DNA of 64,000 nt, taken from positions 1 to 64,000 of the forward strand of contig NZ_JRVC01000019.1 in the NCBI RefSeq assembly GCF_000807925.1, written 5' to 3'. How positions within the stretch are numbered: position 1 is the first letter of the stretch; every line of letters starts with the position of its first letter. A program made the position numbers and the translations under genes. Shown piece after piece: positions 6,491 to 41,280 of the stretch. The notes under the pieces are model-generated. The model searched no databases and was not told the origin of the DNA. It was given only the letters and a program-made list of their open reading frames with translations. This DNA is from Novosphingobium subterraneum. Its GTDB lineage: Bacteria > Pseudomonadota > Alphaproteobacteria > Sphingomonadales > Sphingomonadaceae.

Positions 6491-6535
6491 GCGAACGCGA
6501 TGGACGTGGCTGCCGTTTACGTCAACGGGATCAAT

Positions 6536-7417
6536 TCAGCGCAAGCCACGCGCCTTGGCATAGACCCGCCAGCACAGCGCCTTGGCGCGATTGCCATTCG
6601 GCCAGCGGCCGGGCGGGCGTGGCTTCATGCCAAACTTGCGCAGCAACCCGTTGAAGGCGCGCGCGTCTGCTTCGGCAAAACTCCATTCTGATCGCCAGGT
6701 GATCGAGAGGGAAACCGAGGGCTGCGGGCCGTTGCGTACAAAATGGGGCGACATCACCGGCACGTAGAGCGCCTCGCCCGGGGACAGCGACCAGTCCTTG
6801 CCGCCGCCGAGCAATTCATCGCGCCAGAACAGGTCTCGCCCGCCGCCGGTGTGATAGGTCTCGTGCGTTTCGTCCGGGGCAAAGCGGGCATCGCCTGCCG
6901 GAAACATCGTCATGACCTTCGACCCCATCACCTGAAGGAGGATGTTGTGTTCGGGGTCGAAGTGATAGGGTGTCACGCCGCCCGGGCTGGTCACGAAGAT
7001 GAAGCCCTGCGGTTTCAGCATTGCGCCCGTGCGCTGTTCGATGACCGGGCGCAATTCGTCGAGCAGGCTGTCGAGAAGCTCCGCATAGGCGGGGATCTGC
7101 TCGATATTCTTGAGAGCCGCCCAGCTGCCGGTGGATGCGATGTTGCGGATCGTCTCGCCGATACCAATGCCGTTGGCGGGAGCTTTTTCCCCGTTGAGCC
7201 CCAATGGCAAGGCCGCACGATTGTATTCGACCGAGCGGTCCGGCAGCGCCTCGCCAAGGATAGCGAGGGCATCGGGATGCATCAGCGGGTGCATGCCCAG
7301 CCGGTGGACCAGCTTGTGCGGCACTTCCGGATAGGAGGCGGCGAAAGCGGCGCGCGAGGTCTCGTCGAAAGCGTCGAGGGGCGCGGCTCCGCCAGCGAAG
7401 GCAATCGGTTTGTTCAT
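6536..7417 (-). CDS. Cupin-like/JmjC domain protein
   Basis: This 293-residue protein has a cupin barrel of the JmjC/cupin_8 type. The putative Fe(II) ligands are the HxD pair in TPYHFDPEHN and a distal histidine in VMSPHFVRNG, the pattern of 2-oxoglutarate-dependent oxygenases. The family hydroxylates proteins or small molecules; the substrate here is unknown. The frame stays open to 7582, but the ATG at 7417 (MNKPIAFAGG) overlaps the stop of the upstream acetyltransferase by four bases (ATGA), which marks a two-gene operon and decides the start. Confidence 0.75.
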   Translation of the reverse strand: MNKPIAFAGGAAPLDAFDETSRAAFAASYPEVPHKLVHRLGMHPLMHPDALAILGEALPDRSVEYNRAALPLGLNGEKAPANGIGIGETIRNIASTGSWAALKNIEQIPAYAELLDSLLDELRPVIEQRTGAMLKPQGFIFVTSPGGVTPYHFDPEHNILLQVMGSKVMTMFPAGDARFAPDETHETYHTGGGRDLFWRDELLGGGKDWSLSPGEALYVPVMSPHFVRNGPQPSVSLSITWRSEWSFAEADARAFNGLLRKFGMKPRPPGRWPNGNRAKALCWRVYAKARGLR

Positions 7418-29157: not shown

Positions 29158-30867
29158 TCAGAACAGGCCATCGTCCTCGTCGTCATCAGGGGCCAACGTC
29201 ACATCCGGCGCGATGGCGATCCCATTCAGGCCAGGAACAAGCGCCTGGTTGTGGATGAGGCGCTCGTCTGCCATCGTGTAGCTTCGCGCCAGATCGTCGA
29301 GCATAGTCTGCAATAGAACCGCCTTGTCACCGTCGACCGGCTGGCAATCCGAACCGGCGCCTTGCAGGACGGACGACAGGTTTCGCATGGGCACTTCCAG
29401 CATCCCTGCTTCCTCCAGTGCATCGATTGCCAGTGCCAGGCTTGATCCCAACTGGTCTGACTCGGCCTCAACCACGGCCATCGCCTGTCGGCCTCTTTCG
29501 TTGCAATCGCCAATCGTGGTGAGGAAGCGGGCGAGGAGTTCCCCCGATGCACCACCGTTCTCGTGCGACTGGCTCTGCAGGCGGTGGCAGGGCGCCGACA
29601 GGTTCGTTTGCGTTCGCTGGATGGCATCGGCGATTGCATCAAGGCGTTCGGAATATGTCCTGATCTCGTTGGCGATGACCATCACCGGTCGTCCGATGGA
29701 TTGCGCAGTGCGGCAGCTCAGACCGATATTGATCGCCATGTGCTGCACATCCAGCCGCAGCCGGGTGATGGCTTCTGCCCGTTCCGTAACTTCGTCGACC
29801 GTCTGCAGGATCAGGTCGAGTGTTGCCATGCCCTCGCTGTTCGCGCGGTCCAGCTGGCGCAGCATCAGGTGCGCCTCGGCAACACTTGCCTCGATGCGCT
29901 CCAGCATGTCACTGTCGCCCTCGCTGGCCTGGTCGTCGTCAAGACCCTGGAGATTTCTGCACTGGCTTTGCAGTCGCGAAAGAGAAGCCGCGAGTTCGGC
30001 CCTGTCGCGCCCATAGTCGGAGACTGCCGCTTCGAACAATGCAGCGAGAACGCGAAGCAACGGTGCGCCAGCAGAGCTGGCCATGCTGCCGTCCTGGCGT
30101 CGCGTTTCAAGCGTGCGCAGGCTCGCCAGCACGTGCTCGAGTCGCTGGCGCACGCTGTCGCCGATCTGCATTGCCTGGATGGCGGCGTGGAGCTCGGTCT
30201 GAATCGCCAGAGCAAGGCCGGCAATGGTCTTGGCCAGGTTGCCAAGACGCATTTGGTGCTGCTGCAGGTTGCCCGCTTCGCGCATCAGCGCATCGGGTAC
30301 CTGCGGGAAGACCTTCGCACATTCGCGATCGAGCAGCCTGTCGTTCTCGCCCATCTCGCGGAGACTTTCGAGAAGCCCTCCGAGCATATGGTCGAGGCCG
30401 CGCAGTTCCCGGTCACCCTGATCGAGCTTGCCGCGCATGGCATCTGCAAATTCCATGAACTGCGGATGGCCCGATGCGGTGATCTTCACGTTCATGCCGT
30501 AAATGTCGAGGACCTGCAGGCAGCGCATGACCTCGCCAGCGCTGGCCCGCAAAGACCGGGCGGCCTCGTGCATGGTCGCGATCTCGTGAGACCTGCCCTG
30601 TACCAGACTGCGCACGTTGCGCAGGGATTCGGCGGCCATCCGCAATCCATTGACCGCTTCGACGCCGACGCCGCCATCGAACATGCCGGTCACTTCGGTC
30701 AGGGCCGAGGTGATCGTCTGGATGCGCGTAACCGACTGGCACAGGTGCGTGCTGGCCATGTCGAAGCTTTCGTCCAGACGCTTGAGCAGCGAGACCAGGT
30801 CCTCGATCAGCGCTGCGTGACCGATGTCCTTGGCGGGAGTGGGGACGACAAGTTTGAGAGCCGCCAT
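29158..30867 (-). CDS. Soluble helical chemosensory companion with degenerate MCP-like tip
   Basis: A 569-residue protein with no signal peptide or membrane segment, almost entirely helical. I do not recognise an established family. It is the last gene of the chemosensory operon, three bases after cheB. Residues 236-246 read GDSVRQRLEHV, similar to a motif in CheZ-like and MCP-like helical proteins. Residues 377-415 (MAINIGLSCRTAQSIGRPVM, then VIANEIRTYSERLDAIADAI) align without gaps to the signalling tip of the two MCPs in the same operon. The framework residues are kept, but the conserved EAARAGE core is lost. It may be a CheA/CheW-array component or adaptor; that is inference from position and sequence. 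Confidence 0.7.
   Translation of the reverse strand: MAALKLVVPTPAKDIGHAALIEDLVSLLKRLDESFDMASTHLCQSVTRIQTITSALTEVTGMFDGGVGVEAVNGLRMAAESLRNVRSLVQGRSHEIATMHEAARSLRASAGEVMRCLQVLDIYGMNVKITASGHPQFMEFADAMRGKLDQGDRELRGLDHMLGGLLESLREMGENDRLLDRECAKVFPQVPDALMREAGNLQQHQMRLGNLAKTIAGLALAIQTELHAAIQAMQIGDSVRQRLEHVLASLRTLETRRQDGSMASSAGAPLLRVLAALFEAAVSDYGRDRAELAASLSRLQSQCRNLQGLDDDQASEGDSDMLERIEASVAEAHLMLRQLDRANSEGMATLDLILQTVDEVTERAEAITRLRLDVQHMAINIGLSCRTAQSIGRPVMVIANEIRTYSERLDAIADAIQRTQTNLSAPCHRLQSQSHENGGASGELLARFLTTIGDCNERGRQAMAVVEAESDQLGSSLALAIDALEEAGMLEVPMRNLSSVLQGAGSDCQPVDGDKAVLLQTMLDDLARSYTMADERLIHNQALVPGLNGIAIAPDVTLAPDDDEDDGLF
29623..29739 (-). other. Degenerate MCP signalling-tip segment
   Basis: This is the part of the 569-residue protein that lines up with the MCP hairpin tip. 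MAIN pairs with LALN, VIANEIR pairs with VVASEVR, and SERL pairs with AERS. The spacing equals that in the two MCPs of the operon. The central receptor residues that contact CheA and CheW in canonical MCPs are replaced. Confidence 0.6.
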
Positions 30868-30870
30868 CGC

Positions 30871-31956
30871 TCAGCGCGCCGTAGCCCGGAGGATTTCCCC
30901 GGCAATGCTATCGAGTCCCAGCACGCGGTCAGCCGCACCGCGCGCGATTGCTTCCTTCGGCATTCCGAACACGACCGAGCTTGCCTCGTCCTGTGCGAAA
31001 GTGCGTGCACCCGCCTCCTTCATCTCGAGCAGTCCGCGCGCTCCGTCATCGCCCATGCCGGTCATGATCACGCCCACCGCATTCGAACCGGCGCACCGCG
31101 CGGCTGATCGGAACAGCACGTCGACTGATGGCTTGTGCCGGGAAACCAGCGGTCCATCGCGGACCGAGACGAGATAGCGCGCGCCCTGTCGCTCCAGCAG
31201 GGTATGCTTGCCACCGGGCGCGATGAGCACATGCCCGCGCATGACGGTGTCACCCTGCTCGGCCTCTTTCACTGAAACTTCGCACAGGGAATTGAGACGG
31301 CTGGCGAACGCTCGCGTAAAGCGCTCTGGCATGTGCTGGACCACGACGATGCCCGGGGAGTTCGCGGGCAGAGCTTCGAGGACCTCGCGCAGGGCTTCGG
31401 TCCCGCCTGTCGACGCGCCGATGCAGACCACCATTTCGGTGGTGCGGCTCATCGCGCGGCCGCTGGGCGGCGGCAGCACGGCATCTGCTGTCAGCTTCTG
31501 CTCCGGCCTCATGCGCGGCGGCACGGGCTTGCGCGCCGTAACGCGGGCCCGGGCAGCGCCCTTCACGACCTCGCAAATGGTTGCGCGGGCTTCACTGAGG
31601 TGGTCGGCCACGCCAAGCCGGGGTTTCAGGATCACATCGACGGCCCCGGCCTCGAGAGCCTGGAGCAGCGTTTCCGAACCCTGCTCTGTCAAGGACGAGC
31701 ACATGACCACGGGCACCGGGCACTGGCTCATCAGCTTGCGCAGGAAAGTGATGCCGTCCATCCTCGGCATTTCGACATCCAGGGTGATCACGTCCGGCAC
31801 TTCGGTCTGGATGATGCGGGCTGCCGCAAATGGATCGGCGGCAGTGCCGATGACTTCCAGTTCGGGGTCTTCCTCCAGGATCGCCTTCATGGTCTGGCGC
31901 ACGCTTGCACTGTCGTCGACCACCAGAACGCGGGTACGTGCGGGGCGCTTGTTCAT
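30871..31956 (-). CDS. cheB: Chemotaxis protein-glutamate methylesterase CheB
   Basis: CheB removes methyl groups from receptor glutamates and can deamidate glutamines. The 361-residue product has an N-terminal receiver domain with phospho-acceptor Asp60 ([15 protein letters not shown]). The C-terminal esterase domain has the triad in order: Ser in [12 protein letters not shown], His in [13 protein letters not shown] and Asp in [15 protein letters not shown]. The linker is rich in Pro and Arg. Its ATG overlaps the cheR stop by four bases, and the 569-residue companion follows three bases later. Confidence 0.97.
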
Positions 31957-32860: not shown

Positions 32861-34786
32861 TCAGGCCGCCCGGCCGAAGTCGCTGTCCTCTTGGTCTGCC
32901 CCACCACTGGTCAGGTCGAGTGCGAAGCCGTTGAGCCGCTCCTTCTGGTGGGCGACCGAGTTCGGCTTGACGGGCCGAGCCTTCGTGGGAGCCTGAGGCG
33001 CCGACTTTGGCTTCGGCTTGGCGCTGCGCTGCGTGCGCGGTGCCGCTGGCGAGAACGTGCGCTGCTCTTCCAGCTGGAAGAACGCGGTCGTTTGCTGCAA
33101 TTCTTCGGCCCGCGCCGCAAGAGAGTCCGACGTCGAGGAAATCTGTTCCGAAGCGCTGGCGTTTTGCTGGGTCACCTTGTCGAGCTGCTGGATCGCCTCG
33201 TTGATTTGCGAAGCTCCGATGTCTTGTTCGCGGCATGCGGCGCTGATTTCCGACACGAGTTCTGCCGTGCGGCGGATATCCGGTACCAGCTTGCTGAGCA
33301 TTTCGCCCGCTTCGCTCGCTGCCTTCACCGTCTCGGCCGACACCGAAACGATTTCCGCTGCAGCACTCTGGCTGCGTTCGGCCAGCTTGCGCACTTCCGA
33401 CGCAACAACGGCAAAGCCCTTGCCATGCTCTCCTGCGCGCGCGGCTTCGACCGCGGCATTCAGGGCCAGGAGATCGGTCTGGCGCGCGATCTCCTGAACA
33501 ATGCCGATCTTGTCCGCGATCGTGCGCATGGCAATGACGGCCTTGTCGACTGCCGTTCCCGAAAGCTCTGCATCCTTTGAGGACTGGCGCGCGATCTTCT
33601 CGGTCTGCGCCGCATTGTCGGCGTTCTGTTTGATGTTCGCGGCCATCTGCTCCATCGAGGCCGAAGCCTCTTCTGCCGACGCGGCCTGTTCGGTCGCACC
33701 CTGCGATAGCTGCTGCGAGCTGGTTGCCATCTGTGAACTGCCTTCGGCCACCTCGTTGGCGGCAAGGCTCACGTTGCTGGCAAAGGCACGCAGGTTGTCG
33801 ACCAGCACGTTGATCGAATCCCGCATCTTCTGGTGATCGCCCTGGCAATCGATCTCGACCCGCTCACCAAGATCGCCGGCGCTGAGCTTGCTCAGCACGC
33901 GATTGCCTTCTTCGATCGGCAGGATCGTCGCATCGAGCATACCGTTGATGCCACTGATCAGGCTGGCAAAATCCCCCACGAAGCGACGATCGTCGCCACG
34001 CTCGCCGAGGCGACCGGCCGTGGCAGCGCCGATCAGCATCTGGATCTCCGAGGTTATCGCGCGCAGGTTCTGGCGCAGGTTCTCGATGGTGTCGTTGATG
34101 AAGGCCTTCTTGCCCGGCAACTGTTCCATCGGGGCGTTGAAATCACCTTCGCCGAAGGCCTTGATGCATGCCATGGCCTTCTTTTTCACGGCAATGTGGC
34201 TGGCGACCATGTCGTTGATGCCGCGTGCCACGACACCGAAATCCCCGGGAAACCTGGCATGATCGATGACCACGTCGATATCGCCGCGCTCATGCTCGCT
34301 CGCCATGTGGTTCATCTCGGCGATCAATCCGGTCAGACTGCGACGCAACGTCTCGATGGTGTCGTTGATGAACGCCTTCTTGCCCGGCAGCGGATCGAGC
34401 CTGGCGTCGAAGTTGCCGAGGCTGAACTCGTGGACGATGCTCATCGCAAGCTTCTTTACCGCGATGTGCGCGTTTACCAGATGGTTGATGTCAGCGGCAA
34501 TCTCAGCGATTTCCAGCGGAAGATTGTCCGAGGCGATGACCACGTCGATATCGCCCCGCTCATGCTCCGCCGTCATGTGCTTTATCGCGCTGCCAAGCTC
34601 GCGGACCGGAGCCTGCGACTGGTCGAGCAGGCCATTGATCGCGTCGATCAAAGCGCTGGTGCGGGCATTGCAGCCTGAAGCGTGCAGGCGAGCGCCCAGA
34701 TCGCCGTTCGAGATGGCGGCCTCTACGCGGGCAATCTCTTGCTGAACCTGGGCAGAAGACACTGCCGTGAATGGATTGATGACCAT
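32861..34786 (-). CDS. Soluble methyl-accepting chemotaxis protein with two 90-residue repeats
   Basis: A 641-residue receptor without membrane helices, so it senses a cytoplasmic cue. The N-terminal half carries two 90-residue HAMP-like repeats, each ending [16 protein letters not shown] or similar. A further HAMP-like section follows ([19 protein letters not shown]). The signalling domain has the hairpin tip [20 protein letters not shown] followed by [21 protein letters not shown]. The C-terminus ends [20 protein letters not shown] and FGRAA, matching the tail of the other MCP. The ATG at 34786 has AAGGACGG upstream. No PAS, GAF or other ligand domain is obvious. Confidence 0.93.
34081..34620 (-). 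repeat. Two tandem 270-bp repeats inside the first MCP gene
   Basis: The sequence TCTCGATGGTGTCGTTGATG recurs at 34081 and 34351, exactly 270 bases apart, in phase with a 90-residue protein repeat. The first protein copy is more divergent ([20 protein letters not shown]). The second matches the repeats in the other MCP closely ([20 protein letters not shown]). Boundaries are taken at the IETLR end of each unit. Confidence 0.85.
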
Positions 34787-34857
34787 GGTTGTTCCCGTCC
34801 TTCTTGTTCCGTTCACCTTGATCGCGGCAGCGCGTTCCGTTCGCTGTCGCGGGTGTT

Positions 34858-35346
34858 TCAGGCGTTGACCAATTGACCTTCGCTGCCGATCCCGATGGCA
34901 TCTTCGGTCGTGAAAATCCGGGCCGCGTCGACGATGACCACGAAGCCCGTGTCCCGGCGCACCACGCCGGTTATGTATTCGGAGTTCCAGCTGATCCCGA
35001 TATCCGGGGCAGGTTCTATGTCCGCCTTCTCGAAACTCGTGACGCTCAACACCCGGTCGATGACAACGCCCAGCGTAAGCAGGCGGTCGGTCAACCGCAC
35101 ATCGAGGATCAGGATGCGCGTGGCCAGCGTGGGGTCGGCAGACGGCAGGCCGAGACGCCGGCGGAAGTCGACCGTGGGCACGCCTTGGCCGCGAAGATCC
35201 GTCAGGCCGATGAAATGCGCAGGCCCATTCGGCAGGTAGGAGGGTGGCGCATAATCGAGGATTTCGCGCACTAGAGCGACGGGTATGGCAAAAACCTCGT
35301 TGCCCAGGCCGAATTCCACGACCTGAAGTTCACCCGCGCTGCTCAT
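34858..35346 (-). CDS. cheW: Chemotaxis coupling protein CheW
   Basis: CheW couples receptors to the kinase CheA in the signalling array. The 162-residue product has the SH3-like CheW core: [43 protein letters not shown] and [21 protein letters not shown]. It lies between the two MCP genes. Its start overlaps the stop of the longer MCP by four bases, and 71 bases separate its stop from the shorter MCP. A second cheW precedes the longer MCP, so each receptor has its own adaptor gene upstream. Confidence 0.95.
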
Positions 35347-37655
35347 GCTGCGCGTCCGAAGTCTGCATCGTCGGCGTCGGCGCCACCGTCGGTAAGGTTG
35401 AGGGCAAAGCCGGCCAGTCGCTCCTTCTGTTCGGCTACGCTGTTGCGCTTTACCGGCTTGGTGGCCACGCGCGGCGTCACGCCGGTCTTGCGCGGCGGAC
35501 TTGCCTGGCGGCGGCTTTGCGTACTTTGACGCGGCTCGGCATAGCTATTGCCGGTCCGGAAGAAGGAAATGGCGCTCTGCAATTCCTCGGCCTGCGATGC
35601 AAGTTCCTCGGACGTGGACGAAATCTGGTCCGACGCGCTGGCATTGATCTGCGTGACCTTGTCGAGCTGCTGGATGGCTTCGTTGATCTGCGACGCGCCG
35701 ATGTCCTGCTCGCGGCAGGCTGCGCTGATCTCCGTCACGAGTTCGGCTGTGCGGCGAATGTCCGGAACCAGTCGCGCCAGCATTTCGCCCGCGTCGGTCG
35801 CCACCTTGACCGTCTCTGACGAAACCGAGACGATTTCGGCTGCCGCGCTCTGGCTGCGCTCGGCCAGCTTGCGCACTTCCGAGGCGACAACTGCAAAGCC
35901 CTTGCCGTGTTCGCCTGCGCGCGCGGCCTCGACCGCAGCGTTCAGGGCAAGCAGGTCGGTCTGCCGCGCGATTTCCTGGACGATGCTGATCTTCTCGGCG
36001 ATCGTGCGCATGGCGTTGACTGCCTTCTCGACTGCCTGGCCCGAAACTTCAGCGTCCTTGGAAGATTGGCGGGCGATCTTCTCTGTCTGCGCCGCGTTGT
36101 CGGCGTTCTGTTTGATGTTCGCCGCCATCTGCTCCATCGACGCAGACGCTTCCTCGGCCGAGGCGGCTTGCTCGGTCGCGCCCTGGGAGACCTGCTCGGA
36201 GCTTGCTGCCAGCTGGCGGCTCCCGGCCGAGACGTTGTCAACCGCAGCCGAGGTCGTGCCGACGACAGTCCGCAGCTTGTCGATCATCGTGATCAGCGCG
36301 CTGCCGAGTTGGTCCTCATCCGACAGCGCCCGGTATTCGACCGTGAGATCGCCATCGGCGATGCGGTCGGCCACGCCGGCGGTCTTTTTCAGGTTTGATA
36401 CCAGGGAATTGATGGCGTCACGCATCCGCTGATGATCGCCGTGGCATTCGATATTGACGGTTTCCTGCAGGTTGCCGATGCTGACCAGCCGCAGAACGCG
36501 GTTGCCTTCTTCGATGGGCAGGATGATGGCATCGAGCATGCCGTTGATGCCGCTCACGAGGCGGGCGAAGTCACCGACAAAGCGCGAGGCAATGCCTCGC
36601 TCCGACAGGCGCCCTTCGGTCGCTGCCACGATCAGCCGCTGGATCTCTGCGGTGATCTCGCGCAGGTTCGTGCGCAAGGTTTCGATCGTGTCGTTGATGA
36701 AGGCTTTCTTGCCCGGGAACTGCTCGAGCGGGGCGTCGAAATTGCCCTCGCCGAACGCCTTCACGCAGGCCATGGCCTTCTTCTTCACCGCGATGTGGCC
36801 CGCGACCATTTCGTTGATGCCGCGCGCAACCAGTCCGAAATCGCCCTCGAACCTGGCATCGTCGATCGTCACGTCGATATCGCCGCGATCATGTTCGGCC
36901 GCCATGTGCTTCATCTCGGCGATCAGGCCCGTCAGGTTGCCGCGCAGGGTTTCGATCGTATCGTTGATGAAGGCCTTCTTGCCCGGGAACTGTTCGAGCG
37001 GTGCCTTGAAGTTGCCTTCGCCGAACTCCTTGACGCAGGCCATGGCCTTTTTCTTCACCGCGATGTGCCCGGCAACCATGTCGTTGATGCCGCGTGCCAC
37101 GATGCCGAAATCGCCCGGGAACTTCGCATGGTCGATGACCACGTCGATATCGCCGCGATCATGCTCGCTCGACATGTGGTTCATTTCCGAGATCAGCCCG
37201 ACAAGATTGCCGCGCAAGGTCTCGATCGTGTCGTTGATGAACGCCTTCTTGCCGGGCAGCTGTTCCATCGGCGCGTCGAAATTGCCTTGGCTGAATTCGC
37301 GCACGCAGGCCATCGCCTGTTTCTTGACGTTGATGTGTGCTGCAACGAGCTCGTTGATCTGTGTCGCCATGATGCCAAGCTTGCCGGGCAGGGCATTGGC
37401 GTCGATCACGACATCGATATCGCCGGCTGCATGTTCGTCGGTCATCCGGGCGATCTGCGTGGACAGGTCCTGAACCGGATTGGTGACGGCATCCAGCAGC
37501 CGATTGAACGCCGCCATCACCGCCCGGGTCGGGGCATTTCCGGAGGTTTCATCAAGCCGAAGCAGAAGATTACCCGTAGCAAGCGCCTGCTCGACCCGGC
37601 TTACCTCATCGAGAACCTGCTGTTCGGAAACTCTCGAAAAAACATTGCGCATCAT
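35343..37655 (-). CDS. Soluble methyl-accepting chemotaxis protein with three 90-residue repeats
   Basis: A 770-residue cytoplasmic receptor, paralogue of the shorter MCP. Three 90-residue HAMP-like repeats occupy roughly residues 55-325. HAMP-like segments follow ([20 protein letters not shown] and [20 protein letters not shown]). The signalling domain (residues about 470-720) is nearly identical to that of the shorter MCP. The tail ends [20 protein letters not shown] plus one alanine. An open frame extends upstream to 38069, but the ATG at 37655 has GGAGG before it and overlaps the cheW stop (ATGA). No membrane segment is seen. Confidence 0.93.
36681..37490 (-). repeat. Three tandem 270-bp repeats inside the second MCP gene
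   Basis: TTCGATCGTGTCGTTGATGA-like sequences recur at 36681, 36951 and 37221, exactly 270 bases apart. At the protein level the two repeats nearest the signalling domain are almost identical ([44 protein letters not shown]). The N-terminal one is more divergent ([20 protein letters not shown]). The unit most resembles a double HAMP domain, which in poly-HAMP sensors also repeats at about 90 residues. Confidence 0.88.
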
Positions 37656-38143
37656 GCGGCCTCCGCGAGGGACGTGAAGATTGTGGGCAAATCGGGAATG
37701 ACGATGACCGACCCCGGCTGGCGCACCAGTTCGCGCGCGAATTCGCGCTTCCAGCGCATGCCCAGCACGGGCGGCTCGCTGCTGTGCGCCTTGTCGAGGA
37801 TCGTCACTTCGTGGACCTTGTCCGAGCGCAGCCCGATCTGGAGCGGCTCTCCGTCGATCTCGGTCTCGATCACGACGATGCGGTGATCGGCACTGGCCTC
37901 CTCGCCGGGATTGCGCGGCATGCCGAAGGCCACCCGCAGATCGGCGATCGGGATGATCTTGCCGCGAAAGTTGACGACACTGGCCACCAGATCCGGTGCG
38001 CCCGGAACGGGCGTTTCGGGCAGCAGGTCGAGTATCTCGCGGATGCTGACGGCCTCGATCGCCAGGCATTCATCGCCTACGTCGAATGTCAGCACTTCCA
38101 GTTGGCCGTTGTCATCCCATGGCGTTGTGCTGGTCGTGGTCAT
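37652..38143 (-). CDS. cheW: Chemotaxis coupling protein CheW, second copy
   Basis: A 163-residue CheW with the core motifs [40 protein letters not shown] and [18 protein letters not shown]. The frame is open to 38236, but the ATG at 38143 ([11 protein letters not shown]) starts right after the cheA stop at 38148 and is preferred. The stop overlaps the ATG of the longer MCP, suggesting coupled synthesis of adaptor and receptor. Confidence 0.94.
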
Positions 38144-38147
38144 GGCG

Positions 38148-40208
38148 TCACCCTGCGGCACGGAGCCGCTCCTCATGGCTCTGGCCCAGCGCAACGAGCT
38201 GGACGACATCGAGAATGAGCGCGACCCCACCATCACCGAGGATGGTCGCGCCAGAGAAACTCGGGATCGAACGGTGCAGGCTCGACATGGATTTGATCAC
38301 GGTCTGGTGGCTGCCGATGATCTGATCGACGACAAGTCCGACCCGCTCGCCTCCGGTTGCGATCACCACGATCTTCTGGAAGGGGTCGGGCCGGGTGCCC
38401 GTCGCGAAAAGCTCGCGCAGGCGCAGGAAGGGCACCAGGCGTTCGCGCAACTGGATCATGCTCCTCCCGCGCGAACGGATGTCTTCCTCCAGGCTAAGCT
38501 CCAGGCACTCTTCGACCGCCGCCAGCGGGATCACGTAGTTGTTATCCCCGACCCTCACGAGCAGCCCGTCGATGATCGCCAAAGTCAGCGGAATGCGCAG
38601 GGTTATGACCGAGCCCTTGCCGGGTTCGCTGGTCATGTCGATGTGTCCCCGCAGGCCTTCGATCGTGCGCTTGACCACGTCCATGCCGACGCCACGGCCT
38701 GACAGATTGGTGATCTGGGCGGCGGTGGAAAAGCCGGGCTGGAAGATCAGCTGCAGCAGCTCGCTGTCGCTCAGCACCTGGCCTGGCTGGATCAGGCCAT
38801 TGGCCTCGGCCTTGGCGCGGACCCGTTCGCGGCTGATGCCGCGGCCATCGTCCTCGATTGTGATGAGCACTTCCCCCCCGGCCTGCTGGGCCGAAAGCCG
38901 GATGCGACCGGTCGCGGCCTTGCCCGCGGCAAGCCGCTCTTCCTCGGTCTCAAGTCCATGATCGCAAGCGTTACGGATCAGGTGGACAATCGGATCGGCG
39001 AGCCTTTCGGAGACGGTCTTGTCGATCTCGGTGCTTTCGCCATCGGTCACAAGCTCGATCGACTTGCCGGTCTCGCGGGCCAGGTCGTGGACCAGGCGGC
39101 GGAACCGTCCGAACAACGCGGCAATCGGCACCATGCGCAAGACCATCATCGTGTCGCGCAGTTCATTGGCAAGTCGTTCGACTTCCTCCGAGATCGAGCG
39201 CAGCGCGAGTTCGCCCGCAGGGCCGGAAATGCCATTGCCCGCAAGCTGGGCGAGGCGGCTCTGCACGATCACGAGTTCGCCCACCCGGTCCATCAAGAGA
39301 TCGAGGCGTTCAGCCGGGACGCGCACACTTTCGCTGGGGCCGCGCGCGGCTTTCGCGCTGGCAGGTTCTGCGCTGGCGACTTCCGCGATGGCCAGCGCCG
39401 CATGCTCCGACGGCGCGGGCGAGACTGCCACAGCAGCAGTGTCTGGCGGACCGCCTTCAGCCAAGGCAGCGGCTTCGTCATCCGCGATCGGCGTGATGGA
39501 CAGTTCCATGTCGTCAAGCACGAACAGGAAGACATCTTCGATGACATCGCGCGTCGCGCTGGCGGGCAGGTTCAACGACCAGCCCATCAGGCACTGCGTG
39601 GGATCGAGCTCGTCAAGTGGAGGAACAGCGTCAAAATCCGCGACCACATCGGTGGCGCCCAGTTCCCGCAACTCGTCGAGCAGAAGGAGCGGGTTTGTTC
39701 CGGTGGCAAGTGCATTGGCGGGCAGGCGGAAGTTCAGGTGCCATCCCTGACCTGGCCCGGCGGTGATCGTGGTGGCCGTTGTCGTGTCGTGACCGGCATC
39801 TTCGCCGCAGTCCACGGCTGCAGGGGCGCCTGCTCCGTCCAGCAGGGCCTGAAGCCTCGCAAGCAGATCGGCGCTTTCACTGTCCACGCCATCGCTGTTC
39901 GGCTGGTCGATGAGGGTGCGCATGTGGTCCATGGCAGAAAGCGTCAGCGCAACCAGCTCTGGCGAAGCGCGGGCCTGCCCCTTGCGGACCTTGTCGAAGG
40001 CTGTTTCGCAGTGATGGGTAAATGCGGCCAGAGCATCGAAGCCGAACATCGCGCCCGAGCCCTTGAGCGTGTGCATCCCGCGAAAGACGGTGTCGATGAG
40101 CTCCCGGCTGGTCAGGTCGTGGCTGAGATCGAGCAAGGCCTGCTCGGTCGCTTCGAGTAGCTCCCCGGCTTCGATCCGGAAGGCTTCGATCGGGTCCTGC
40201 CCGGTCAT
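38148..40208 (-). CDS. cheA: Chemotaxis histidine kinase CheA
   Basis: CheA autophosphorylates and passes phosphate to CheY and CheB. The 686-residue product has the full P1-P5 layout. The Hpt domain carries phospho-His46 in RGMHTLKGSGAMFGF. A P2-like region contains LLLLDELRELGA. The dimerisation domain has VRVPAERLDLLMDRVGELVI. The ATPase domain has the N box (HLIRNACDHGLE), G1 (EDDGRGISRERV) and G2 (GRGVGMDVVKRTIEGLRG). The CheW-like P5 domain follows from VGDNNYVIPLAAVEECLEL. It overlaps cheY by four bases. Confidence 0.97.
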   Translation of the reverse strand: MTGQDPIEAFRIEAGELLEATEQALLDLSHDLTSRELIDTVFRGMHTLKGSGAMFGFDALAAFTHHCETAFDKVRKGQARASPELVALTLSAMDHMRTLIDQPNSDGVDSESADLLARLQALLDGAGAPAAVDCGEDAGHDTTTATTITAGPGQGWHLNFRLPANALATGTNPLLLLDELRELGATDVVADFDAVPPLDELDPTQCLMGWSLNLPASATRDVIEDVFLFVLDDMELSITPIADDEAAALAEGGPPDTAAVAVSPAPSEHAALAIAEVASAEPASAKAARGPSESVRVPAERLDLLMDRVGELVIVQSRLAQLAGNGISGPAGELALRSISEEVERLANELRDTMMVLRMVPIAALFGRFRRLVHDLARETGKSIELVTDGESTEIDKTVSERLADPIVHLIRNACDHGLETEEERLAAGKAATGRIRLSAQQAGGEVLITIEDDGRGISRERVRAKAEANGLIQPGQVLSDSELLQLIFQPGFSTAAQITNLSGRGVGMDVVKRTIEGLRGHIDMTSEPGKGSVITLRIPLTLAIIDGLLVRVGDNNYVIPLAAVEECLELSLEEDIRSRGRSMIQLRERLVPFLRLRELFATGTRPDPFQKIVVIATGGERVGLVVDQIIGSHQTVIKSMSSLHRSIPSFSGATILGDGGVALILDVVQLVALGQSHEERLRAAG

Positions 40209-40570
40209 TGCCCCAGCACCTTGCGGGTTACCTTCAGCAGATTTTCGGCAACGAACGGCTTGACCAGCCAGCCGGTCGCGCCTGCGGCCTTGGCTTGCTG
40301 CTTCATGCCCTCATCAGATTCCGTCGTGAGGAATATGATCGGCGTACCGGCCTGAAGCGGCAGCTTGCGGATTTCCCGGATCATCTCCAGACCATTCATA
40401 TTCGGCATGTTGAGATCGGTGATGATCATGTCGAACTTCGATGACCTGGCCTGTTCGAGCCCTTCCTTGCCATCGGCTGCCTCCGCGACCTGATGTCCGG
40501 CTCCCGACAGCGCAATCCGGATTGCCATCCGGACGCTCATGGAATCATCGACGGTGAGTATGGTGGTCAT
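40205..40570 (-). CDS. cheY: Response regulator CheY
   Basis: A 121-residue single-domain receiver. The acidic pocket is Asp8-Asp9 (LTVDDS), the phospho-acceptor is Asp52 (ITDLNMPNMNG), the switch Thr is in IIFLTTESDEG and Lys104 is in WLVKPF. With no output domain, it must act by binding a target. No flagellar motor gene is present in the window, so that target may be a pilus motor or another protein. It overlaps both the STAS gene upstream and cheA downstream by four bases. Confidence 0.96.
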   Translation of the reverse strand: MTTILTVDDSMSVRMAIRIALSGAGHQVAEAADGKEGLEQARSSKFDMIITDLNMPNMNGLEMIREIRKLPLQAGTPIIFLTTESDEGMKQQAKAAGATGWLVKPFVAENLLKVTRKVLGQ

Positions 40571-40872
40571 TGCTCGGTGGCTCCGGTCGCACAGAGATTT
40601 TCACAGATCGCAGAGATCGGCCCGGCAAGGCCCGCGCGCTCGATCAGGCCGGCAACGGCAGGATCGGCAGCGGGCACGATCGAGATGCTCTTGCTTTCCC
40701 GCTGGGCAAACTTGCGCGCCGCCGCGAGGATCTGAAGGAAGGTGAGGTCGGCTTCGACCACGCTCGAGCAATCGATCTCGATCGAGGAATGGATCTTCAG
40801 CTCGTCGAGGATCGCCTCGCGGATGTCCGGGGCGGTGCTCAGGTTTGCAATAGTGCCAATCGGGATAGTCAT
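40567..40872 (-). CDS. STAS domain protein, first gene of the chemosensory operon
   Basis: A 101-residue single STAS-like domain. The core helix-strand pattern is SSIEIDCSSVVEADLTFLQILAAARKFA (quoted in part), where a Ser or Thr is phosphorylated in anti-anti-sigma factors. Here the DCSSVVEAD segment sits at that place. The ATG at 40872 follows GGAGGGA; longer frames upstream are not supported. STAS genes lead several chemosensory operons in which they may carry a partner-switch or docking role. The real partner is unknown. The stop overlaps cheY by four bases. Confidence 0.85.
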   Translation of the reverse strand: MTIPIGTIANLSTAPDIREAILDELKIHSSIEIDCSSVVEADLTFLQILAAARKFAQRESKSISIVPAADPAVAGLIERAGLAGPISAICENLCATGATEQ

Positions 40873-41280
40873 GTTCCCTCCGCCCGTTCCGGCCGACGAC
40901 ATGACTGATGGCTTGCGATCTGCTCTTTTTACGTTTTCCGCGATATAGTTGTTGTTACTAGGCAGAAGCTTCCGTTCAGGTAGCCATTGCCGAAGAAACT
41001 TCGTTAACCACGTGTGGTCATGAGCGGTTCGCGACGGCACTTCTAAAATGCGGTCCAGTCGCTTGTCGGCCCCCGCCATGACATGGCTGCCGTCGCGTTC
41101 CAAAGCCTGCAGCACAGCTGGTTGTGAGCGTTCGGACGGGCAAAAAAGTTTTCACGACAACACTTGAGAACAGACTTTGATCCGGCCCGAAATACCGTGT
41201 TGCGGAGCGCTACGATGAGTGTTTTACTTTGCCGCCGTGTGGTCCAATCATGCTGCTACACGGAATAAGGGTGGATGCAT
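40873..41280. other. Divergent intergenic region of the chemosensory operon and cytochrome c gene
   Basis: About 408 bases with no credible gene. It must contain the promoter of the chemosensory operon (minus) and of the cytochrome c gene (plus). An inverted repeat lies at 41235-41263. I do not see a convincing sigma-70 promoter or a TGT-N12-ACA site for PpsR. Confidence 0.5.
41235..41263. promoter_or_regulatory. Inverted repeat just upstream of the cytochrome c gene
   Basis: CCGTGT, 17 bases, then ACACGG: a perfect 6-base inverted repeat directly before the AAGGGTGG ribosome-binding site. It could be an operator or a stem in the mRNA leader. Its half-sites TGT and ACA resemble PpsR half-sites, but the spacing is 17 instead of 12 between the hexamers. 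Confidence 0.35.

Follow-up and report, generated by a model that had tools for sequence, protein, structure and literature searches.

Tandem 270-bp units, read as double HAMP domains, in two paralogous poly-HAMP chemoreceptors of Novosphingobium subterraneum

The window, that is, the whole 64,000-nucleotide stretch of Novosphingobium subterraneum DNA analysed here, carries on its minus strand a chemotaxis operon in which two receptor genes share a repeat of 270-bp period, the long receptor (MCP-L) having one unit more than its short paralogue (MCP-S). This raised the questions of what a unit encodes, how and when the long receptor came to have its additional unit, and what a change in unit number would do to such a receptor. 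The operon runs in the order STAS-domain gene, cheY, cheA, cheW, MCP-L, cheW, MCP-S, cheR, cheB and a gene for a 569-aa protein. The ATG of MCP-L overlaps the stop codon of the upstream cheW; MCP-S was counted from a GTG, and the ATG at 34786 may be an alternative start. The features referred to below are the following.

40567..41115, minus strand, STAS-domain protein (PF13466)
40205..40570, minus strand, cheY-like receiver
38148..40208, minus strand, cheA
37652..38185, minus strand, cheW upstream of MCP-L (PF01584)
35343..37655, minus strand, MCP-L, the long MCP, 770 aa, with three di-HAMP units
37149..37418, minus strand, unit L1, entry unit of the array
36951..37220, minus strand, putative duplicated segment, copy 1, spanning the back of L1 and the front of L2, in the phase of the first-pass annotation
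36879..37148, minus strand, unit L2, the extra middle unit, with an L3-like front and an L1-like back
36681..36950, minus strand, putative duplicated segment, copy 2, spanning the back of L2 and the front of L3
36609..36878, minus strand, unit L3, exit unit of the array
36261..36407, minus strand, predicted extra single HAMP of MCP-L ahead of the signalling hairpin (about residues 417-465, boundaries approximate)
35346..35435, minus strand, conserved C-terminal tail of MCP-L, ending DFGRAA
34858..35346, minus strand, cheW between MCP-L and MCP-S (PF01584)
32861..34816, minus strand, MCP-S, the short MCP, 651 aa counted from the GTG, with two di-HAMP units
34280..34549, minus strand, unit S1
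34010..34279, minus strand, unit S2, exit unit
32864..32950, minus strand, conserved C-terminal tail of MCP-S, ending DFGRAA
31953..32819, minus strand, cheR
30871..31956, minus strand, cheB

A repeat search returned a family of five copies with spacings of 270, 2329, 270 and 270, and Tandem Repeats Finder reported a period of 270 with 2.4 copies at 36672-37325. At the coordinates of the first-pass annotation, identity at a lag of 270 was 0.64, 0.65 and 0.84, compared with a mean of 0.287 and a maximum of 0.389 in the rest of the window (5897 positions). These measures bear out the exact 270-base spacing described in that annotation, and its count of three units in MCP-L versus two in MCP-S stands as well; the period stays in frame, each unit amounting to 90 residues. 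Its boundaries fared less evenly: the MCP-S coordinates, 34081 and 34351, are correctly spaced but enter the motif one base sooner than 36681 does, and the third MCP-L unit as drawn (37221-37490) is merely 64-65% like the other two, which we read as overrunning the array into the entry HAMP. Nor are the inner units 'almost identical', as had been stated. In the frame starting IDVV, DNA identity within genes was 73% for L1/L2, 76% for L2/L3, 61% for L1/L3 and 60% for S1/S2, and between genes 80% for L3/S2, 75% for L2/S2 and 71% for L1/S1. The best pair, in the phase of the first-pass annotation, was 36681-36950 versus 36951-37220, with 84.1% identity overall and 70% at third codon positions, and this phase may be that of the duplication. 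The front half of L2 is 84% identical in nucleotides to L3 and 66% to L1, and its back half 80% to L1 and 67% to L3 (Fisher p 1.3e-7, optimistic like the other mosaic p values because break points were picked for fit). Constraints on the end units, as entry and exit of the array, would also produce part of such a mosaic.

As to what a unit encodes, Pfam HAMP_N3 covered three stretches in MCP-L and two in MCP-S, McpB_HAMP_2 gave three and two matches, respectively, and HAMP_2, HAMP and MCPsignal were matched in addition; the MCP signalling domain (PF00015) was present in both receptors (E 1.7e-30 and 3.4e-31). Residues 244-335 of MCP-L matched residues 71-162 of the Aer2 HAMP structure 3lnr (phmmer, E 9.7e-20). 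AlphaFold models, both computed as monomers, of MCP-L residues 1-478 (41 relatives, pLDDT 89.3) and of MCP-S (28 relatives, pLDDT 87.1) contained ten interhelix connectors, of 14, 14, 12, 15, 12, 15, 12, 15, 13 and 15 residues, and seven, of 14, 13, 12, 13, 12, 15 and 14 residues; ten HAMPs are thereby predicted for MCP-L and seven for MCP-S. A Foldseek search with the MCP-L model returned three PDB entries at E <0.001, all of Aer2 poly-HAMP. The earlier suggestion that each unit is a double HAMP domain is supported by the Pfam matches, the phmmer match to 3lnr, both models and the Foldseek result. The surplus of MCP-L over MCP-S consists of the two HAMPs of the extra unit and one beside the hairpin, which corresponds to connector 434-448 in the MCP-L model and has no counterpart connector in that of MCP-S. 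The paralogues also differ in that the predicted number of HAMPs is even in MCP-L (10) and odd in MCP-S (7). Pfam gave no sensor domain, PAS included, in either receptor (PAS up to E 1), and by hydropathy alone no membrane span is evident, the highest 19-residue window being 1.43 in MCP-L and 1.37 in MCP-S. With directly concatenated HAMPs, an MCP domain and an apparently soluble chain, both are poly-HAMP chemoreceptors.

Comparable proteins are on record. Aer2/McpB of Pseudomonas aeruginosa is likewise a soluble MCP with concatenated HAMPs (PMC3570549, PMC7184735), and the 90-residue unit resembles its HAMP2-HAMP3 in sequence and fold. Poly-HAMP chains have been described in Aer2, with the proposal that alternating conformations carry opposite signals (PMC3570549). 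As portrayed in these sources, Aer2 differs by its haem PAS sensor, its 3+2 HAMPs and its 36H hairpin. MCP-L and MCP-S, with 10 and 7 HAMPs, were rejected as Aer2 orthologues: PAS was not matched up to E 1, their hairpin arms are 7 residues shorter than those of E. coli MCP I, and the NCBIfam Vibrio Aer2 equivalog scored 237.1 and 273.9 bits versus a cut-off of 1200. Moreover, both tails end DFGRAA instead of the CheR tether motif x-[HFYW]-x2-[HFYW], which was reported in 96 of 130 Aer2-like receptors (PMC7184735). Nine HAMPs, arranged as four 92-residue pairs and a single one, occur in CaNik1 (PMC3848655), one of the fungal group III histidine kinases, which are also described as having no transmembrane regions (PMC7643160); the output of CaNik1 is, however, that of a hybrid histidine kinase and not an MCP hairpin, and its pair measures 92 residues, not 90. 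A poly-HAMP array that expanded or contracted between two Myxococcus species is that of MXAN_6735/AskB, again a hybrid histidine kinase (PMC4603909, PMC7643160), a unit-level analysis being absent from the available text of both papers. FrzCD of Myxococcus xanthus is a cytoplasmic MCP with a di-HAMP ahead of the signalling domain, but a helical linker connects its two HAMPs, as in Aer2 HAMP1-2, whereas Aer2 HAMP2-3 are concatenated, and its N-terminus binds DNA (PMC12077210). In the portions of the open-access literature consulted, no study dealt with unit copy number in the present receptors, except that PMC4603909 reports one length change, in a kinase. The components and the type of change are thus already known from poly-HAMP proteins, and the present receptors add detail, namely an exact step, middle units that are hybrids, and a pair of 10- and 7-HAMP receptors without a recognised sensor.

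Across the wider family, receptors carry 1 to 4 units each. The named-genome set consisted of the best 80 matches (79 loci) obtained with a query that has three units in its first row, which over-represents three-unit arrays; of its 161 unit-to-unit steps, 160 measured 90 residues. In a set overlapping this one the step was exactly 90 in all 64 adjacent pairs. Unit matches of 50 bits or less were dropped in earlier counts, and those of 40 bits or less from the 161-step count on; the named-genome set and the set of genomes labelled G share contigs, and their counts must not be summed. A search with the whole of MCP-L was left out of the counts, its matches being mostly ordinary MCPs picked up by their signalling domain. 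The sole exception among the 161 steps, of 132 residues, belongs to L157 of Sphingomonas aurantiaca (at about 6496-6621); no other array was out of step, and this one has roughly one extra HAMP, as if a single HAMP had been added by crossover between unlike positions. On a tree of 93 signalling domains, built without receptors cut by contig ends or with fewer than 250 residues after the array, unit number changed at least 26 times, although its long branches, and counts of 1 that may miss very divergent units, bear on this figure; with shuffled labels the average was 39.5, and unit number is thus less scattered on the tree than the shuffled labels are.

Traces of such changes were found within individual genes. 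Pseudoduganella rivuli has 4 units and P. namucuonensis 3, the remaining units being 92, 91 and 94% identical, and in G216 and G196 two of the units are 99% and 97% alike, respectively, over 90 core bases. A within-gene pair at least 95% identical over 120 nt was present in 33 of 89 named-genome receptors and in 4 of 46 of the G-labelled set, and in the control, first versus last units between named-genome receptors, 1 of 3916 comparisons reached this level. In G231/G232, which belong to the MCP-L clade, the middle unit agrees with L3 at all 27 informative sites before a switch near base 95-98, and with L1 at 52 of 53 or 53 of 54 beyond it; L148 and L193 present a comparable hybrid pattern with few exceptions. 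Within-gene unit similarity per 30-base bin (78 pairs) rises to 83-84% in the core and is 44% in the last bin, so the core offers most homology and is where crossing over would most readily find a partner. The core motif PGKKAFIN was invariant or almost so in every unit of 42 sequences (41 of the 48 three-unit stretches listed, plus the window); a second set comprised all 28 stretches listed, plus the window. Gain and loss of units by recombination, as the first-pass annotation had envisaged, is therefore supported in the wider family and in G231/G232; for the window, a recent change of this kind is not supported.

Taking the sequences and the structural models together, we regard it as very probable that these are poly-HAMP chemoreceptors whose di-HAMP unit was duplicated in tandem by recombination between unit cores. 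The 270-bp unit would be a module of two alternating HAMP kinds, one with a 12-residue and the other with a 13- to 15-residue connector, on continuous helices, and the stacked chain would feed the MCP signalling hairpin. To judge by the mosaic, recombination would have joined the conserved cores of adjoining units; a crossover located there yields a copied segment made of the back of one unit and the front of the next, and such core-to-core duplication would preserve reading frame and helix register. HAMPs function as dimers (PMC12077210); the dimer, the relay and the array proposed for MCP-L and MCP-S are putative. Each HAMP would hand helix movement to the next, with conformations alternating along the chain, so that steps of whole pairs should leave the signal's sign and the order of kinds as they were and alter the length of the relay and perhaps its gain. 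Both receptors, together with CheA, CheW and CheY of the operon, would form one cytosolic array. A strict parity rule was considered and set aside, being weakened by L157 and by the extra single HAMP of MCP-L: the paralogues differ by this HAMP besides the pair, and the whole-pair sign rule in its strict form consequently fails between them. The family provides a natural series in which output is of one kind while the number of di-HAMP units runs from 1 to 4, including 10 and 7 HAMPs in one operon; such a series would let the model of a HAMP relay with alternating conformers be tested by length and parity. The family also illustrates how a coiled-coil relay may grow and shrink with its register kept.

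The first-pass annotation had read the extra unit of MCP-L as a recent duplication and receptor length as setting which receptors share an array, a combination that now appears highly improbable. A recent origin would suit the inner segments, the most alike pair of the array (84%), and relatives do change copy number. However, in a comparison sample of one genome per species, the MCP-L clade of the signalling-domain tree comprises 14 receptors, 13 of them complete, and three units are present in 11 of these 13. This first tree kept 50 of 52 receptors and included rows cut by contig ends (G159 and G187, two of the three one-unit rows, and the two-unit G455), so that the change count there is slightly high. 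A constant number of units older than speciation, which the annotation had named as contradicting its proposal, is largely what the clade presents, the exceptions being its two two-unit members, the second receptor of G341 and that of G209. The same copy in the window and in G227, the closest relative found, is 94-95% identical in nucleotides and 87-89% (0.87-0.89) at third positions, more than the 70% (0.70) between the copies in the window; the last common form of the copies is therefore older than the split, and by these sequence comparisons the tandem duplication pre-dates the separation from G227. The unit tree, with only 90 columns, gathers the last units in a group of 49 rows and places L2 units from nine genomes together in a second one (SH-aLRT 94, not starred); this agrees with orthologue counts and third codon positions in speaking against a recent duplication in MCP-L. 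The same L2 group tells against a further reading, in which units of the L lineage have turned over, by loss and regain or by conversion, with selection holding their number near three instead of one old duplication. We consider this possible, though somewhat short of an even chance. It would account for the almost clean L3-L1 hybrid of G231/G232, whose L1 and L2 group together and not by position (97*), and for the two-unit receptors of G209 and G341. Similarity within receptors, 78-84% in the nine other L-clade receptors compared (93% in G231/G232), is moreover about as high as that of the same copy between species, which in the first-pass phase averaged 79.4%, with 78.0% for other copies. 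These near-equal values fit some homogenisation, which may hide the true age within the L clade. As to length, array sharing generally depends on hairpin class, not on chain length. The hairpins of MCP-L and MCP-S align without length difference; of the nine further MCPs encoded in the genome, eight have arms longer by 7 residues (one heptad), and the ninth has a different gap pattern in the alignment; E. coli MCP I, whose arms are longer by the same amount, we take to be of class 36H, and MCP-L and MCP-S presumably of class 34H. Equal hairpins, one operon with cheA and the lack of an evident membrane anchor, which would make total length the matching dimension, leave the length claim unsupported. 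Cytoplasmic sandwich arrays, as in R. sphaeroides and V. cholerae, have their receptors between two layers of CheA/CheW; for membrane-free arrays the distance between these layers is given as about 30-35 nm (PMC3964821), and length could matter there.

Two other readings concern the function of the array. It might be a passive spacer or scaffold of neutral unit number, the signalling hairpin alone mattering, which we consider unlikely. A family range of 1 to 4 units, the lack of a recognised sensor domain to position, and the operon of G284, with a 2-unit gene and none between its two cheW genes (a dispensable partner or an assembly gap), would accord with a spacer; the strong conservation of PGKKAFIN in the unit core would not, nor would gene order, since the 3-unit gene lies on the cheA side in all nine related che clusters holding a 3-unit and a 2-unit gene, as it does in the window. 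At the other extreme, the di-HAMP array itself could be the sensor and its length a quantised dial, with the long and short pair of the operon (10/7, opposite parity) selected and with recombination between unit cores supplying exact two-HAMP steps that change gain, not sign; this we offer as a long shot, one still less probable than a spacer. Besides tandem duplication between unit cores, which remains our preferred reading, the tails deserve mention. Both receptors share the motif GFALxL...D..D.DFGRAA. Among 50 full tails of the G-labelled set, window included, the AA end was found in 44 and D..D..F in all 50, and among 23 of 92 named-genome tails, seven of the eight that are neither rhizobial nor sphingomonad end aromatic-x2-aromatic, like a CheR tether. 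The DFGRAA tail may thus be a changed CheR tether or a putative degradation signal.

Of 195 genomes of the genus, 28 carried HAMP_N3; the family sample gave 15 among 397 (9 above the cut-off), and in the class sample of 385 genomes (277 genera) the domain was matched only in that of the window itself. A narrow distribution was nevertheless dismissed as a sampling effect, relatives among the best 80 matches of the named-genome scan being rhizobial, beta- and gammaproteobacterial, and others. Locus context varies: G399 and G501 have che clusters with two 2-unit genes, several clusters have just one receptor gene, of one, two or three units, and receptors located away from any che cluster occur too. 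The che cluster of G284 (L105) differs from those of relatives in that its two cheW matches do not flank a receptor gene, and the long partner there is either dispensable or absent from the assembly. At the head of the operon, the STAS-domain protein has matches in relatives that are merely 29-84% identical. At its other end, the 569-aa protein after cheB (29158-30867) had no significant match in Pfam or NCBIfam; a relative of it, 26-88% identical, was found in all 25 of the retrieved related loci with a cheB match.
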